Origin: Candidatus Parabacteroides intestinigallinarum
GTDB lineage: Bacteria; Bacteroidota; Bacteroidia; Bacteroidales; Tannerellaceae
DNA: 51,324 bases
Reading direction: 5' to 3'
Assembly (NCBI GenBank): GCA_019114945.1
Contig: DXEN01000016.1
Location: 1-51,324, forward strand
How positions within the stretch are numbered: the first letter of the stretch is position 1; each line of letters begins with the position of its first letter. The position numbers were made by a program, and so were the translations under genes. Positions 1,448-7,729 of the stretch are shown piece after piece. Under the pieces are notes generated by a model, which had not been told where the DNA came from, searched no databases, and saw nothing but the letters and a program-made list of their open reading frames with translations.

Positions 1448-1475
1448 TGGGCGGGTAAGCATTACCTCCCGCCCA
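1448..1475. terminator. Hairpin between convergent genes
   Basis: TGGGCGGG (1448-1455) and CCCGCCCA (1468-1475) form a perfect 8-bp GC-rich stem between the phosphatase-like gene and the convergent helicase gene. The right arm overlaps the helicase C-terminal codons. There is no T-run, so a terminator role is only plausible. Confidence 0.4.
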
Positions 1476-4400
1476 CGAACAGGTCGAAGCAGAAGGGTAG
1501 GCGCCGCTTCTTATAGTTCAGGACGTAGGCGAACGAGGTTCTTTCCCGCTTAAGCGCTTTCACGCGGCGGCTCAGGTTATCCACGAAGACCTTGTAGGTG
1601 TTCAGCTGGTGGTCCGTGTCGGAGTGTTGGACGAAAATGACATAGTGGTTGAGCGGGTAGCGCGCCATGACGTCGTTGATCTGCTGGGCGAGCCGCTCGG
1701 CGAAACGTGCCGTGATGTTGGAGAAGAAATAGGACAGGTTCAGGACGACCAGCGAGGGGAGCTCCGAGCACCCCGCCCAATACGCCTCGTCGAGCGCGGC
1801 GAACGACTCGATCATCCTGTAGCGCAATCGGTTGTGGAAGCGGTCGTCGAGCAACCGCGCGCCCATCCGCTTCATCGCCGCCGAGATGTCGACACCCGTA
1901 TAGACCATGTTCGGGGTGTCGGGCAAGAAGACCTCGGCGAAGGCCAGGCCGCATGTCGCCGGGCCACAACCGATATCGATCATCCACACACGCCCCTCCA
2001 CGGAGCGGATTAGCGCGCGTGTCCAGGCACCACAGCTCTCATACAGGTTTTTGGCGCTGCAATAGTGTTGGCGCATGATGTAATAACAATAAAGCAGCAC
2101 CTGCCGCTCGGGGCTCATCGCGACGTCGTCGAATAGGGTGATCTGGTTGGAGAAGTTCACGCGACCATAGCCAATGGCGTTCAGGTTCGTGGGCATGTCA
2201 TAGCCAAAGACCTTCGAGGGCCATTCCTCGCCCGAGGCCTCCTTGACGGGCTGGAGCACGTGGCGCTCGTAGGCGGTGTTGAATTCCCGTGTGGTGGTGT
2301 AAGTGGCTTGGCTCAAGTCTAAGGCCTCCACTCGCTCGTATTCCGGCACTTGGAAACGACCCGCCACGTAATCGTCTCGCTCGATATCGAAGTATCCCTG
2401 CCGGCTGCGGACGAACTCGATCAGCTTGAAGAAGGTGAAATTGTTCGAGAGCAATTCGGGGTTGCCGACCATCAGCAAGTGCTCCTCCGCCCGCGTCATG
2501 GCCACGTTGAGCTTGCGGTCGACCACCGTGCCATCCGCATCCTCGAAGACGTTGTTCGTCAGGAAGTCCAGTTGGTAATATTTCTGGATCGTGAAGCCAT
2601 AGATGATGTATTTCCGCTGGGAGCCTTGATAACGCTCCACCGTGTCGATCGTAATATCGTGCAAGGCCTGGATGCCGTATTTGTCGATCGTGTTGCGGAT
2701 GGTCGCGATCTGGTTCCGGTAGGGAACGATCACACCCACGGTCTCATTAACATCAAAGTTTTCCTTTTCGATATCATAGATCTTCACGACCGTCGCGGCG
2801 ATGATATCCGCCTCCACCTGATTGACCTTGTCCGACGAGGAAGACGCTTCCGGCGACCTGGCCGCGATAAAGGTGACGCGTCGGGTGGCCAGCAAATCCA
2901 CGATGCCATTCCCGCTCATGCCCAAGGCCGGCAAGGCCCGGTTTTGGTGAGGGCGGGGCACTTCCTCGAGGGCGTTATTATAAAAGGTATAATTCGGGAA
3001 GAGGGCGATGTCGTGGTGCATCCGTCCTTGCTTGGTGAGCAAGTAAGTCAGGTTCTTATTGTTTCGGTATTTCTTAAGCAATCGCTCGAACAAGGAGAGG
3101 CGGCAATCCGTCAACAAGATCTCATTCAACAGGGCGTCCTGTACTCGCGAGACGTCTGGTTTCTGCTGCACCACCGCGGGCAGTTGCTTGTGATCGCCAA
3201 TCAAGACGAATTTCCGGATGGCCGGGACACCCTCCCGGTGGGCGCTCAGCAGACCGATCAAATGCGGCTCCAAGATCTGGGAAGCCTCATCAATCACCGC
3301 CAAGCTAAAGGACTTCAATTGGAAGAGAGAGAGGTTGGCGTTCAGTGCGGTTGTCGTTCCCACGAAGACCCGTGTAGAGAGCAGCTTTTGCCGTAACTCC
3401 TCCATCTTCGCGCAGTCCCGTACCTGGGCGCTGAGCATATACTCCCGATAGGCTGGCGAGCAACTCAATCTCGTCCCGATCCGGATAAAGTCGATCCCTT
3501 CCGCCACCAGCTTGCCGCAAATCTCATCGATGGCCCGATTGGTATAGGCCATCAGGAGGATGTTGCTCTTCGGCTTCAGCAACTCTTCCTTTACCGTGTT
3601 CAAGAGGCCATAGGAGGTCTTGCCCGTCCCCGGAGGACCAATGATCAGGAAAAGATCCCTCGCCCTTTTCACCTGCGAGGCCAGCTCGTTGAAAGCGCCA
3701 TAATCCCCCTTCAATGCGAGCGATGGGTCATGTTCAGGCTCTCGCTGGAAGAGCAACAAGTCGCGACGCTCCTTGGGTGCCGACAGGAATGCGTGCATCC
3801 CCCGATAGAGTGAGCTGTAGGAAGAGTCCAGGAAGTCGTGCTCGATCGCCCACAATTTCCCCGCTTCCCGCTTGAACACCCGCCCATCGGACTGCGCGGC
3901 CCGCAACGCCAATTGGATGGTATCGATCCGTAAATCCTCGATCGTGCAGCGGAACACCATGGTCGTACGGACATCTGGTTCCTCGCCCGGATTATAGGGG
4001 TAAAGGATCACGATATCCCCAACGCGGAAATTAGACATATCGTTATCCTTCGTCTCCGAGAAACGGAGGGTTACGGACTTAATCTCCCCTTCCGTCTGGT
4101 CGTTCGGCGAGGCAAGCTTCAAGCCACAATAGATATTGCCCGCCCGCAGCTTCTCTTCCAGCGAATCATACCATTTCGCCGCGAAGCCGGAGTTCTCCTT
4201 GGTCTTGTTTCCCAATTTGGACAACAAATGCTCGTTGGCGATAAAGGTCATGAAACGGAAATAATAGGCTTTCTCTAACTCGGAAGCCTGGTGGATTGGG
4301 GTCACCAGGCTCTCGATTTGCTTTGATTGGTAATCCTCCCAAAGCCGACCGGAAGTCCCCTTTTGGTTCATCTTCTCCGGCGTGATCGCCTCCAAGATCC

Positions 4401-6360
4401 GAAAACCGGACGGACGGGCGTACAAGATCTCTGTCCAAGCGATCTCATTCCGGATCTTCATCGCCCGGAAGATTAACTCCGGAGCGAATCCCAATCCCAG
4501 TAAACTGTTCGTGTATTTCGAATAAAGAAGGAAAGCGTGCAACTCTTGCTTGTTCCGCTCGTAAATCTCCCGGAAATTATAACGGATCAACGCCATGTAG
4601 AGCAACAACTGCACGTAATGCTCCTCCTTCTGTTTAGGTTTGACATAGTTATCATAAGGGAACTCCCCCTTCCCGGACTTTTGCTCGATCAAGACCCGGA
4701 AGTCCAATTGCAAATAATCCATACGTCCTTGGAGGCCCAACAACTCAGAGAAGAAAGACGGTTCGACCATCGCCGCTTTCAAGTCGAAATGCTTCATGTG
4801 GTTCGGCAATTCCGTATAGATCGCTTGGGCGATGTTTTGCTTCTGCTTTTGCGCTTCGCTATGGAAGCTTGCGTCAATCCCCCCGGTCAACAGCCCCAAT
4901 GCGTTATCTTGATAGAAATCCCTTATGCTTTGGGCGTAGGGTCGTGCGTCCGGCAACTGATGGATCGCCTCGTCTAACAATTGCCCCGCGAAATTACCCA
5001 ACAGGATCGGGCCTGTCGCTTGAACGGGAGTAATCTTATTCAAGAGGTTCACGAAAGGCGATTCCGCGTAGTTCGTGAAACAGCGGGCAACCGAAGAAAT
5101 ATCCACAAGAAAGTCGGGTTCGAATACGATCAACTCCGGATAGAGGATTCCCTCCTCCTTGCGAGGACGCACCAAGTTCAACTGGGCGCCTTTATAGAAA
5201 AGATTCTTCAAATAGCTCCAATCATAATCATAGGTACGATTGGTCAGATAGTCTATCTTAAGCAATTCCTCCTCCCCGGACTCCTCTGATTGCCCATAGA
5301 CATACTGATCGTCCCATTGCTCTATCAGCACCCGTAGCCGCTCTCCGACAAGCGGCGCTTTGAACACGGGCAGCTCCTCTTTCGGGAAGAGCGCCGAGAG
5401 CGTCTCCGGGATTCGGGCTCTCGGGTAAACGAACGCGATGAACGCGCACAGGTTCCTCAAGTCGTGGCGATAATATTTTTCCAAATCCTGAACGGGGAGC
5501 TTGCTACTTTTCCTCAGTCTGACCCGCGTATCGTTCGTATGCCTCGCCATCTCGCGAGACGCTCCGTGTTCCTTCAGCAGGTAATCCGTCTTGGCGAAAG
5601 GCCCACCAAAATGAAGTCTCGTCGCGCTCGTATTCAAATCCAGGCATTTATGGAACACCCTGTTGTAGGCCTGATAAACGGCCTGATAATTAGGAACCTG
5701 CCGGGTAGCCGCTTCCAGTTCCTCAAACAAATTTGTGGACGACTCCGGATCGTAAGCTTCGGAAAGCGTCGCCGAATCTTCTTGCCCCCGCTCTTTCGTC
5801 ACCTCGAATTCCTCTATCCGCAATAAAGCCGGTATCCGTTCGATATACTCCGCCTCGAAAACAGGGCGATTCCGACTTCCCAAAAGAACCGATAGCCGCG
5901 TGTAGTCGCATACGGAAAGCCATGCCTTGACCGTTCCGGACAACTGGGTCGTATCGATACGAGCCTTTTTCCCAAAGATAATGGTCGCTCCCAGCGCCTG
6001 AACCTTCTGTCCTAACAACACCGTCAACCCTTTCGCCACCCGACTCCGATTCAACCGGATTTGCTCATATGGGGTCTTCCTTCCGGCTCCGCCTTCGATA
6101 ATCAGGCCGTCCGAAGTCCAGGAGCCATTCTCTCGCGCGACAATCTGGCCACCCCAATTCTTAAACTCCAAAATCCGGAATCCACCCGTGGTCACCAAAA
6201 GCGCGTCCAACTCGACCCCTTCGATATTGTAATTCCCGATTAGCAGGCAAGGATCCGTGCGATCGGCATACTTCGCCTCAAGCATCGCCCGGATCGCGTC
6301 GAATTGTTTCCGCTCCGCGGCATGATCATATTCCGATATCTTAAACACACGCAAGGCCAT
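1462..6360 (-). CDS. Giant NERD / Cas4-like nuclease / SF1 helicase / methyltransferase-like fusion
   Basis: A 1632-residue soluble protein with at least four recognisable parts. Residues 10-125 are a NERD nuclease-like domain (VELDALLV with D52, then ILEFKNWGG with E65 and K67). Residues 520-600 hold a PD-(D/E)XK core of the Cas4/RecB type (GRMD D548, IEQK E559 and K561, QLLLY Q584-Y588). Residues 880-1315 are a UPF1/Dna2-type SF1 helicase: Walker A GPPGTGKT 908-915, DEAS 1024-1027, GDHKQLPA 1055-1062, YQGSQRK near 1244-1250 and VAMTRAEEH 1286-1294. Residues 1455-1630 look like a Rossmann SAM methyltransferase (IDIGCGPATCG 1461-1471, GVDIS 1489-1493). It lies 18 bases after the DUF1848 gene and is surely co-transcribed. 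All catalytic motifs named are intact. DNA processing in repair or phage defence is inference; the domains are seen. Confidence 0.85.
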   Translation of the reverse strand: MALRVFKISEYDHAAERKQFDAIRAMLEAKYADRTDPCLLIGNYNIEGVELDALLVTTGGFRILEFKNWGGQIVARENGSWTSDGLIIEGGAGRKTPYEQIRLNRSRVAKGLTVLLGQKVQALGATIIFGKKARIDTTQLSGTVKAWLSVCDYTRLSVLLGSRNRPVFEAEYIERIPALLRIEEFEVTKERGQEDSATLSEAYDPESSTNLFEELEAATRQVPNYQAVYQAYNRVFHKCLDLNTSATRLHFGGPFAKTDYLLKEHGASREMARHTNDTRVRLRKSSKLPVQDLEKYYRHDLRNLCAFIAFVYPRARIPETLSALFPKEELPVFKAPLVGERLRVLIEQWDDQYVYGQSEESGEEELLKIDYLTNRTYDYDWSYLKNLFYKGAQLNLVRPRKEEGILYPELIVFEPDFLVDISSVARCFTNYAESPFVNLLNKITPVQATGPILLGNFAGQLLDEAIHQLPDARPYAQSIRDFYQDNALGLLTGGIDASFHSEAQKQKQNIAQAIYTELPNHMKHFDLKAAMVEPSFFSELLGLQGRMDYLQLDFRVLIEQKSGKGEFPYDNYVKPKQKEEHYVQLLLYMALIRYNFREIYERNKQELHAFLLYSKYTNSLLGLGFAPELIFRAMKIRNEIAWTEILYARPSGFRILEAITPEKMNQKGTSGRLWEDYQSKQIESLVTPIHQASELEKAYYFRFMTFIANEHLLSKLGNKTKENSGFAAKWYDSLEEKLRAGNIYCGLKLASPNDQTEGEIKSVTLRFSETKDNDMSNFRVGDIVILYPYNPGEEPDVRTTMVFRCTIEDLRIDTIQLALRAAQSDGRVFKREAGKLWAIEHDFLDSSYSSLYRGMHAFLSAPKERRDLLLFQREPEHDPSLALKGDYGAFNELASQVKRARDLFLIIGPPGTGKTSYGLLNTVKEELLKPKSNILLMAYTNRAIDEICGKLVAEGIDFIRIGTRLSCSPAYREYMLSAQVRDCAKMEELRQKLLSTRVFVGTTTALNANLSLFQLKSFSLAVIDEASQILEPHLIGLLSAHREGVPAIRKFVLIGDHKQLPAVVQQKPDVSRVQDALLNEILLTDCRLSLFERLLKKYRNNKNLTYLLTKQGRMHHDIALFPNYTFYNNALEEVPRPHQNRALPALGMSGNGIVDLLATRRVTFIAARSPEASSSSDKVNQVEADIIAATVVKIYDIEKENFDVNETVGVIVPYRNQIATIRNTIDKYGIQALHDITIDTVERYQGSQRKYIIYGFTIQKYYQLDFLTNNVFEDADGTVVDRKLNVAMTRAEEHLLMVGNPELLSNNFTFFKLIEFVRSRQGYFDIERDDYVAGRFQVPEYERVEALDLSQATYTTTREFNTAYERHVLQPVKEASGEEWPSKVFGYDMPTNLNAIGYGRVNFSNQITLFDDVAMSPERQVLLYCYYIMRQHYCSAKNLYESCGAWTRALIRSVEGRVWMIDIGCGPATCGLAFAEVFLPDTPNMVYTGVDISAAMKRMGARLLDDRFHNRLRYRMIESFAALDEAYWAGCSELPSLVVLNLSYFFSNITARFAERLAQQINDVMARYPLNHYVIFVQHSDTDHQLNTYKVFVDNLSRRVKALKRERTSFAYVLNYKKRRLPFCFDLFVGGR

Positions 6361-6378
6361 ACTCCATTCTCCTCCTTT

Positions 6379-7455
6379 TTAACGTCCGGTAATTGTTTCC
6401 GCGTACTTATTCAAGCGATGCGCCTCATAATTACGCCGCGCGGCCTCCTTACTCGTATTCGCGTAACAATACTCACACAAGTGCACGCAAGTGTTGTACT
6501 CCCCGATATCCTTGGCCATCATGCATCCGCAAAAGGAGCGTTGTCCCGCATCCTTCTTATGCTTACTATAAAAATAATGAGTATCGTCCAGCTGGATCGC
6601 GTCCGCCGGTATTCGGGGTATATCGAATAGAGAGGGCTGAAGCTCATGGATCTCCACTTTCATAAATTCCATCAAGGCCTTATCCCGCCAGGCGATCCTC
6701 GTAATCAAATCGCCATCAATACACCGGTTATGGACGATTCCATACCGCTCGATATCGATCTTCTCGCAACAGGTCGCCAACTGATAATCCCAATCTCTTT
6801 CTTGGTTCATCCGGGAAAGACGCTCTGCGAAGGTTTCCATCCGCCCCGCCTCCCATATCCGATAAGGGACGCCATTTCGTTTCAAATTACTTTTGACTTT
6901 GGCATATTCCTCGATATCCGCGAAACTAAAAACGAGCTTCTCTGTTTGCCCTCGCAATAGATCGCCCACACGCTGTACTTTCTCGAGCAACCGTTCCTCG
7001 TCCACCGCATCCGTCAAGATTAGGGGATCAAACCGCCAGATCACCCGGCCTTTCCCCAAACGCTCGATGAGTCGGTGGAACGTCTCTATCCGATAGGCCA
7101 AGGGTTTCACCCCTTTCTCTAGACCCTCCGCCTCGTAGTCGTTCAAGCTGTATTGCACATAACACCCTATTTCCTTCTCTTCCAGATAATCCAACAATCC
7201 GGACGTCAACAAGGGACGGGGATCCTTCGACCAAAAGACGATAAACCGCGTATTGGCGTATGACACGTAGCTCCTCACGCCATTGAACGGATTGGTCCAC
7301 ACGGAATAACCTTTCTCCTTCAACCGATAAAGGAACCAATCTGCGTAGAAAGCGGGAATATCCGTACTCCTGCTCGCCGAGACAATCACGGGGATTTGCG
7401 CGACCGCCTTATCCCCATTCTCCAATGTAATCTCCTCTTTCGCCCACGATGCCAT
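6379..7455 (-). CDS. DUF1848 protein with C-terminal radical-SAM-like cysteine motif
   Basis: A 358-residue protein of the DUF1848 family, recognised from the VSASRSTDIP start (25-34), the WSKDPRPL segment (75-82), IWRFDPLILTD (139-149) and the C-terminal cysteine cluster. The cluster is CGC (C309, C311) followed by CVHLCEYCYA with C323, C327 and C330. This is exactly the CX3CX2C spacing that binds the 4Fe-4S cluster of radical SAM enzymes, and the HxCxYCY context resembles spore photoproduct lyase, but it sits at the C-terminus instead of the N-terminus. It is the first gene of a two-gene operon with the nuclease-helicase fusion. Biochemical function is not known to me; a redox or lesion-repair enzyme working with the helicase is inference. 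Confidence 0.8.
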   Translation of the reverse strand: MASWAKEEITLENGDKAVAQIPVIVSASRSTDIPAFYADWFLYRLKEKGYSVWTNPFNGVRSYVSYANTRFIVFWSKDPRPLLTSGLLDYLEEKEIGCYVQYSLNDYEAEGLEKGVKPLAYRIETFHRLIERLGKGRVIWRFDPLILTDAVDEERLLEKVQRVGDLLRGQTEKLVFSFADIEEYAKVKSNLKRNGVPYRIWEAGRMETFAERLSRMNQERDWDYQLATCCEKIDIERYGIVHNRCIDGDLITRIAWRDKALMEFMKVEIHELQPSLFDIPRIPADAIQLDDTHYFYSKHKKDAGQRSFCGCMMAKDIGEYNTCVHLCEYCYANTSKEAARRNYEAHRLNKYAETITGR

Positions 7456-7504
7456 AAAACCGATATATTATAACCGTTCGCGTTCTTGATAAACGCGCTC
7501 GATA

Positions 7505-7512
7505 CAAAGGTA
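7505..7512 (-). promoter_or_regulatory. -7 promoter box for the DUF1848-helicase operon
   Basis: TACCTTTG on the minus strand lies about 50 bases upstream of the DUF1848 start codon. The upstream -33 element is weak (ATTG at 7535-7538, 22 bases away), suggesting modest or activated transcription. The 22-base repeat array begins 43 bases further upstream. Confidence 0.6.
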
Positions 7513-7554
7513 AGTCTTTATCGCGAGATAACGGCAATCCGCCGGCTATTTGAG

Positions 7555-7642
7555 ACAAACCTATGTTTTACTCTTTATGAACCTATGCTTTGCACCCGGA
7601 GAAACTATGTTTTACACGGGAAACATAGATGCCTTTTCCCCC
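7555..7642. repeat. Intergenic array, four 22-base units (array A)
   Basis: Four imperfect tandem units start at 7555, 7577, 7599 and 7621. The core CTATG recurs at 7561, 7583 and 7605, exactly 22 bases apart; the fourth unit has AGATG at the same phase. The core reads ACCTATGTTTTA, closely similar to the units at 24243-24418 and 49305-49414. The array fills the divergent gap between the DUF1848 and rpsF promoters. A short in-frame peptide could be drawn across it but has no support. Confidence 0.75.
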
Positions 7643-7658
7643 TTTTTTTACTGTACCC

Positions 7659-7689
7659 CTTGCCGTTTCCAAAATAATCACTACCTTTG
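7659..7689 (+). promoter_or_regulatory. Promoter of the rpsF-rpsR-rplI operon
   Basis: CTTG (7659-7662) is followed after 19 bases by TACCTTTG (7682-7689), 40 bases upstream of the rpsF ATG. It is a near-perfect Bacteroides housekeeping promoter, as expected for ribosomal protein genes. Confidence 0.8.
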
Positions 7690-7729
7690 CACCGCAAAAA
7701 ATAATTAATCAATTATCAAATAACAAATT

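Follow-up and report, generated by a model that had tools for sequence, protein, structure and literature searches.

The contig DXEN01000016.1 of Candidatus Parabacteroides intestinigallinarum, analysed here as a whole (51,324 nt, hereafter the window, from a 2.98 Mb genome labelled G000), carries two adjacent minus-strand genes that look like a putative, undescribed defence or DNA-processing system. The first gene encodes a DUF1848 protein of 358 amino acids (AA), and the second encodes a 1632-AA protein that unites a helicase and a methyltransferase with two nuclease domains. Established for this pair are its co-transfer between species, its conserved nuclease, helicase and S-adenosylmethionine (SAM)-binding motifs, and its predicted folds. 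We read it as a horizontally mobile two-gene anti-invader cassette, with a probability of about 0.45. If true, a single polypeptide of a compact mobile system would combine two nucleases with a helicase and a methyltransferase, and a radical-SAM enzyme would serve it; DUF1848 would gain a testable function, and a bacterial DNA2 relative would be open to genetics.

Domain architecture of the gene pair

Both open reading frames (ORFs) were confirmed with the DUF1848 gene first, as was the 18-base gap described in a first-pass annotation made from the sequence alone. The features are as follows.

6379..7455, minus strand: DUF1848 gene, 358 AA, first of the pair (ORF and Pfam match)
6361..6378: 18-base gap between the DUF1848 gene and the gene of the 1632-AA protein
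1462..6360, minus strand: second gene, 1632 AA, ATG start, with NERD, Cas4/RecB nuclease, DNA2/UPF1-like superfamily 1 (SF1) helicase and class-I methyltransferase
5761..6360, minus strand: NERD nuclease-related region, residues 1-200 (Pfam match 34-112; D52, E65, K67)
4402..5109, minus strand: Cas4/RecB-type PD-(D/E)XK nuclease core, residues about 418-653, end point approximate
2395..3693, minus strand: SF1 helicase motor, residues about 890-1322 (GPPGTGKT 908-915, DEAxQ 1024-1028, DRKLNVAxTRA 1281-1291)
1465..2343, minus strand: class-I SAM methyltransferase domain, residues 1340-1632 (DxGCGPxT 1462-1469)

Conservation was assessed on relatives from two sources. A survey of the order found the helicase in 47 of 393 genomes and returned 30 loci, 20 of which were read with wide flanks. 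The window's own locus and that of G211 cover residues 1-1628, G258 has the core and the methyltransferase without NERD, and the remaining returned loci contain the core only (about 960-1270 residues). A contig scan added ten relatives, nine covering residues 1-1595 or more and one (L037) lacking residues 1-198. The resulting set of 12 full-length versions was built with patterns of the window protein, which favours close relatives.

The NERD domain (PF08378) was recognised at residues 34-112 with 33.9 bits (E 5e-8), above the curated cut-off of 22.1, and the predicted key residues D52, E65 and K67 were identical in 11/11 full-length sequences having the N-terminus, window included; L037 lacks it and stands outside this comparison. 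The second proposed nuclease, with D548, E559, K561, Q584 and Y588, was likewise upheld, these residues being invariant in all 31 aligned sequences (12 full-length and 19 others, window included) and the nuclease fold being supported by a structure model of residues 418-1617. Profile support for the Cas4 domain is weak (PADLOC Cas4, E 0.033), and PHROG 1706 (‘CRISPR/Cas system associated’) matches residues 541-613 at E 6e-4. The RecB/Cas4 motifs D, E-x-K and Q-x3-Y precede the SF1 helicase, as in DNA2-like nuclease-helicases, and nuclease and helicase of the model align co-linearly with DNA2, superposing over 806 residues. This superposition and the Pfam matches to AAA_12 (E 7.5e-31) and AAA_11 (E 7.5e-24) agree with the earlier UPF1/Dna2-type assignment.

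At the C-terminus, where a SAM-methyltransferase-like domain had been suspected, the motif I glycine loop DxGCGPxT is invariant in the 12 full-length sequences, and residues 1041-1179 of the model (numbered within the modelled residues 418-1617) show the alternating strands and helices of a class-I methyltransferase, which supports the fold. No Pfam methyltransferase model exceeded its cut-off (Methyltransf_12, E 0.0054, 17.9 bits against 30); PADLOC C3a159 gave better support, with E 3.9e-11 for the whole protein and 2.3e-12 for the domain alone. A profile of the domain searched against sequences of solved structures retrieved generic methyltransferases at best E 0.014, plus chance rows, and RT_UG35 matched the domain at E 0.032 over positions 44-104 only.

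The DUF1848 assignment is firm (Pfam E 1.4e-81). Its CX3CX2C motif (C323, C327 and C330, with C309 and C311 upstream) lies near the C-terminus and is invariant in 29/29 DUF1848 sequences. When its structure model was compared by a second aligner, which worked on Foldseek's own candidates, the first 26 rows were all radical-SAM enzymes, as were 33 of the 50 listed rows; the functions of some of these are as we presume them. Foldseek alone ranked aldo-keto reductase and other barrels first, with low TM-scores. Because the motif is invariant and the 26 top rows are radical-SAM enzymes, the model suggests that DUF1848 is a circularly permuted radical-SAM barrel, in line with the earlier guess of an iron-sulfur (Fe-S) or radical enzyme. 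A rotation test agrees weakly: only two of five rotated sequences matched beyond the cysteine stretch, in a test controlled by the native order alone, and Pfam Radical_SAM reached at most 16.5 bits, rotated or not, against a cut-off of 29.5. Radical-SAM families with peptide or RNA substrates (SuiB, Elp3, RlmN) scored equally high in the fold comparison. Searches with the DUF1848 profile against solved-structure sequences gave chance rows only, and PHROGs contained no match. A purely zinc-binding role of the cysteines is disfavoured by their spacing and the predicted fold, which favour radical-SAM.

Linkage, joint transfer and partners of DUF1848

Counting the window, 10 of the 12 full-length versions have DUF1848 next to the helicase gene; they represent fewer independent cases since L034, L036 and L039 are near relatives. 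In seven further versions with unchanged gene order the gap measures 1 to 18 bases; L041 has an apparent 26-base overlap, and L042 has the reverse order (helicase, then DUF1848) with a gap of 9 bases. By contrast, DUF1848 was present in 0/19 other helicase neighbourhoods of 17-20 kb (18 core-only loci and L047). The proposed DUF1848-helicase coupling thus holds for the full-length versions, but not for the helicase core as such, and the recurrent companion of DUF1848 is a methyltransferase, as set out below.

On a core tree that included 10 of the 12 full-length proteins, these grouped with the core-only L007, which was nested beside L040 (support 97/91 for the group of 11 rows), and L007 has therefore likely lost its extra domains. 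The L007 locus (L046) and L042 belong to one genus and have flanking gene families in common, representing the same site in two versions: L042 carries the full NERD-helicase-methyltransferase protein with DUF1848, and L046 a bare core helicase from which methyltransferase tail and DUF1848 are missing together. The core helicase at L047:7990-13051 ends in a divergent methyltransferase tail but has neither NERD nor an accompanying DUF1848; an uncharacterised 259-AA ORF is located 13 bases upstream of it.

A close relative of the pair was found in a Parabacteroides metagenome bin (L032), which matches window positions 1483-7466 at 93.0% with the pair sited elsewhere. There was no other match in 14.8 kb, of which only about 0.8 kb lies on the DUF1848 side. 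The rpsF-rplI region of the two genomes is 81% identical and dnaA 74% at the DNA level. At third codon positions the identity is 86% and 89% for the two genes of the pair, against 68% in rpsF, 65% in rpsR and 53% in rplI. In two same-genus and two further same-family genomes, other genes lie upstream of rpsF, with window-like sequence beginning again at about 7660-7681. Because the pair is more similar than rpsF-rplI and dnaA, third codon positions show the same contrast and the related genomes have other genes at the site, we conclude from sequence comparison that both genes were transferred together between species, as a unit among gut bacteria. The unit also has a higher G+C content than the sequence after it.

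Among plasmids, 162 records matched the helicase and none covered more than 80% of it, so no full-length relative was found there. DUF1848 occurs in 6 plasmid and 8 phage records, all below 60% identity; the phage collection was queried with DUF1848 only, and the two phage records inspected carried no annotation. On a cyanobacterial plasmid (Planktothrix, L158), a hypothetical gene and one for an AlkB-family dioxygenase, both on the opposite strand, come after DUF1848.

The wide flanks of 20 other DUF1848 loci from the same order, several from related genomes, revealed that a class-I methyltransferase of a different family lies within three genes in 11 of them (L100, L102, L106, L110, L111, L112, L114-L118). 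Nine of the DUF1848 loci covered by this count had also supplied the profile of this second family (consensus DWGCGQG...LIEPSE). Its companions vary. The methyltransferase is fused to Sel1 repeats in L100, L110 and L111, with leucine-rich repeats (LRR) as well in L100. In L102 and L115, which are 92% identical, its fusion partner is a UvrD-type helicase. One reading frame at L112:6494-9190 unites DUF1848, the methyltransferase and a C-terminal part similar to the L100 LRR protein, and a second, partial methyltransferase copy lies at L112:4291-4908. Four-gene operons at L114:203-5506, L116:460-5992 and L117:8293-13674 consist of DUF1848, a small SF1 helicase, an ADP-ribosyltransferase/glycohydrolase and, last, the methyltransferase; the two-component ADP-ribosyltransferase and ADP-ribose glycohydrolase domains of the third protein were identified by Pfam in L114 only, and L116 and L117 carry the same gene families. 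Behind the full-length pair in L036 (12104-19855) and L039 (12915-19043), a protein of about 1745 AA contains the second-family methyltransferase and a helicase; in L036 its helicase region is DpdF-like, and the MTES_1575 nuclease model is matched weakly. This protein is followed in both loci by a 291-AA protein, coiled-coil-like in L036, and L036 also has a tubulin/FtsZ-family protein. The second family was in none of the 19 other helicase neighbourhoods.

The window methyltransferase and the second family do not find each other directly, and their identity as one family was rejected (probability 38% and E 3e-4 when the profiles were compared, with 92 columns aligned around motif I). When 12 second-family domains were searched against PADLOC at E up to 1, five matched C3a159 and three RT_UG25 (best E 8.9e-7 and 1.6e-4, respectively), the RT_UG25 stretches lying at the N-terminal end of the profile. 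Both families share the C3a159 model and appear to be kin at superfamily level at most. Against solved-structure sequences, the second-family profile gave only generic methyltransferases or chance rows (best E 0.0013).

On the best tree, helicase-linked DUF1848 genes did not form one clade; five changes were needed, at least two of them forced by well-supported branches, and these genes were mixed with solo and other methyltransferase-linked ones. Partners therefore seem to have been exchanged or re-linked. As a correlation, what recurs beside DUF1848 is more aptly called a class-I methyltransferase than a helicase, and DUF1848 and the methyltransferase may form a portable module whose remaining domains vary. 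This recurrence beside varied companions goes beyond the first-pass annotation, and the neighbourhood offers a handle for finding further systems.

Proposed function and competing explanations

In the anti-invader reading we infer a DNA substrate, radical chemistry and a self/non-self logic. Best supported is the proposal of a single DNA2-like machine formed by the Cas4/RecB nuclease and the SF1 helicase, which would move along DNA strands and degrade them, while NERD would supply a second nuclease activity for a different step or substrate. With less support, DUF1848 would generate a 5'-deoxyadenosyl radical with a [4Fe-4S] cluster and, jointly with the class-I methyltransferase tail, place or read a mark on a nucleic-acid substrate common to both; DNA as the target of this methyltransferase is our proposal. 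Least supported is the last step, in which the mark would decide the target of the nuclease-helicase and unmarked or wrongly marked incoming DNA would be destroyed. A doubtful extension is that the permuted radical-SAM enzyme and the class-I methyltransferase constitute a portable two-SAM-enzyme module whose radical chemistry would mark nucleic acid in self/non-self immunity. It might be mounted on several chassis: a NERD/DNA2-like nuclease-helicase, a UvrD-type helicase, a helicase with ADP-ribosyltransferase/glycohydrolase, Sel1/LRR proteins, or beside a DpdF-like helicase. To our knowledge, modification chemistry of this kind has not been described for restriction-type immunity.

Several observations weigh against the anti-invader reading. 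We know of no phage, plasmid or damage phenotype of the pair. The defence-island context is weak: among ten neighbour proteins of our own choice from six full-length loci, one, a type II methyltransferase next to L036, gave a strong match of defence type, and the majority of the rest were housekeeping-like. A further neighbour in L036 is DpdF-like. The phage-defence role suggested in the first-pass annotation is putative, and the interpretation given there is, as a whole, partly supported. L037 and L038 have no adjacent DUF1848; the gene is absent from the whole L038 genome, and the L037 genome has one distant copy elsewhere. Nine of the 20 other DUF1848 loci (L101, L103-L105, L107-L109, L113 and L119) lack a second-family methyltransferase in reach. 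A phylum survey, filled by the single family f136 and saying nothing on linkage, found DUF1848 in 59 genomes of that family (genera g258 and g263; family total not stated), where it looks like a resident gene. The DNA2 nuclease has four Fe-S-ligand cysteines. No such four cysteines are conserved in the nuclease region in alignments of 31 and 34 sequences, C427 being the sole conserved cysteine in residues 418-653 (12/12 full-length; at least 90% of the 34-sequence set). In the fold comparison, the RNA-bound helicase IGHMBP2 outscored DNA2 (Z 25.7 against 24.2), and the best methyltransferase row, from a list chosen by the helicase-dominated model, was a ribosome-assembly protein; the models point to RNA as much as to DNA.

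These last results lead to an RNA-directed alternative, in which the UPF1/IGHMBP2-like helicase, the rRNA-assembly-type methyltransferase and the radical-SAM enzyme (a class that includes RlmN, Cfr and Elp3) would, during infection, alter RNA chemically or break it down. Nevertheless, the Cas4/RecB nuclease and SF1 motor in DNA2 order, together with NERD, point to DNA, Pfam Rsm22 has no match in the window's genome, and fold cannot tell SF1 RNA helicases from DNA helicases. We consider an RNA target improbable. An unlikely role, though one worth weighing, is that of a mobile DNA-repair or recombination module, in which DUF1848 would reverse a DNA lesion like spore photoproduct lyase and the DNA2-like protein would resect or unwind damaged ends. 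However, two nucleases and a methyltransferase in one chain are hardly needed for repair, DUF1848 is also near Sel1/LRR, ADP-ribosyltransferase and DpdF-like genes, and SuiB, Elp3 and RlmN, with peptide or RNA substrates, match its fold as well.

It is also conceivable that the two genes are not functionally paired, DUF1848 being a solo enzyme beside the helicase through a common mobile cassette. The five changes on the DUF1848 tree and its mixed linkage types are consistent with this, as are the many DUF1848 genes without such a partner and the two full-length versions lacking it. Nonetheless, tight linkage (18 bases or fewer, or a small overlap) in 10/12 versions over 51-93% helicase identity and in both gene orders, the absence of DUF1848 from all 19 other helicase loci, and the joint absence of methyltransferase tail and DUF1848 in L046 make an accidental association improbable.

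Relation to known systems and genomic setting

No model in Pfam, PADLOC, NCBIfam or PHROGs covers the whole domain combination, and the first-pass annotation likewise knew no named system with this exact set. Literature searches for the combination gave no paper that we recognised as describing it, and the word DUF1848 was in no paper of the library searched. Compared with DNA2 (5eaw, 5ean, 5eax), the pair protein has an additional NERD N-terminus and methyltransferase C-terminus, is bacterial, mobile and paired with DUF1848, and lacks the conserved Fe-S cysteines. The helicase half alone is shared with the PLuB helicase-like PLuB_AAA (NF040671; residues 759-1316, profile 692-1247 of 1256, E 3.4e-46), whose 157.2 bits are far below the curated cut-off of 999. 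The SF1 motor resembles that of Mokosh MkoA/MkoC in PADLOC (MkoA E 5.9e-47, best stretch 984-1306), but the MkoA match is limited to the motor (profile 755-1081 of 1112) and the other domains differ. Mokosh has a kinase partner or a PLD domain; neither pair gene has a kinase or PLD match in Pfam or PADLOC, and the flanks are an alkaline-phosphatase-like ORF and rpsF. PDC-M16A, a candidate defence protein in PADLOC, resembles the NERD end (residues 1-185, E 2.3e-21) over profile positions 1-192 of 917, the rest not being common. C3a159 is a 265-position family, matched over 51-226, whereas in the pair protein the domain is a C-terminal helicase tail; C3a names presumably denote type III CRISPR accessory genes. 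We take chain 7 of 8csr to be METTL17, and Pfam Rsm22 (PF09243) found no METTL17/Rsm22-type match in G000 at E 0.01. DUF1848 has the CX3CX2C motif and the predicted barrel in common with spore photoproduct lyase and other radical-SAM enzymes, but its motif is near the C-terminus and Pfam Radical_SAM stays below cut-off.

DUF1848 in defence is not wholly new, as PADLOC already has a DUF1848 model among proteins associated with defence reverse transcriptases (DRT); this model, RTasDUF1848, matches the window protein at E 4.7e-33. The DUF1848-linked methyltransferases of L036 and L112 match RT_UG25 (DRT) weakly within profile positions 48-133 (E 7e-4 and 4e-3). The pair contains no reverse transcriptase by Pfam or PADLOC, and searching G000 with the RT_UG25 profile at E 1e-8 gave no hit. 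No surveyed DUF1848 place is near an RT_UG25 hit in lists compared by eye, the nearest on one contig being about 120 kb away. Nearly all listed rows of the RT_UG25 survey match the profile around 255-577, presumably as any reverse transcriptase would, and have no bearing on linkage.

G000 has one DUF1848 match and one helicase match at E 1e-30, and both flanks of the pair resemble ordinary chromosome. The ORF at 273-1442 is alkaline-phosphatase-like (NCBIfam match below cut-off), and the other flank genes are presumably rpsF, rpsR, rplI and dnaA, as named from their sequences. Promoter and terminator scans gave signals no better than chance. Inspection by eye revealed TTACCTTTG- and TACCTTTG-like elements, which we take to be of the Bacteroides promoter kind, at about 7490-7520 and 7640-7700 (positions approximate), between DUF1848 and rpsF.

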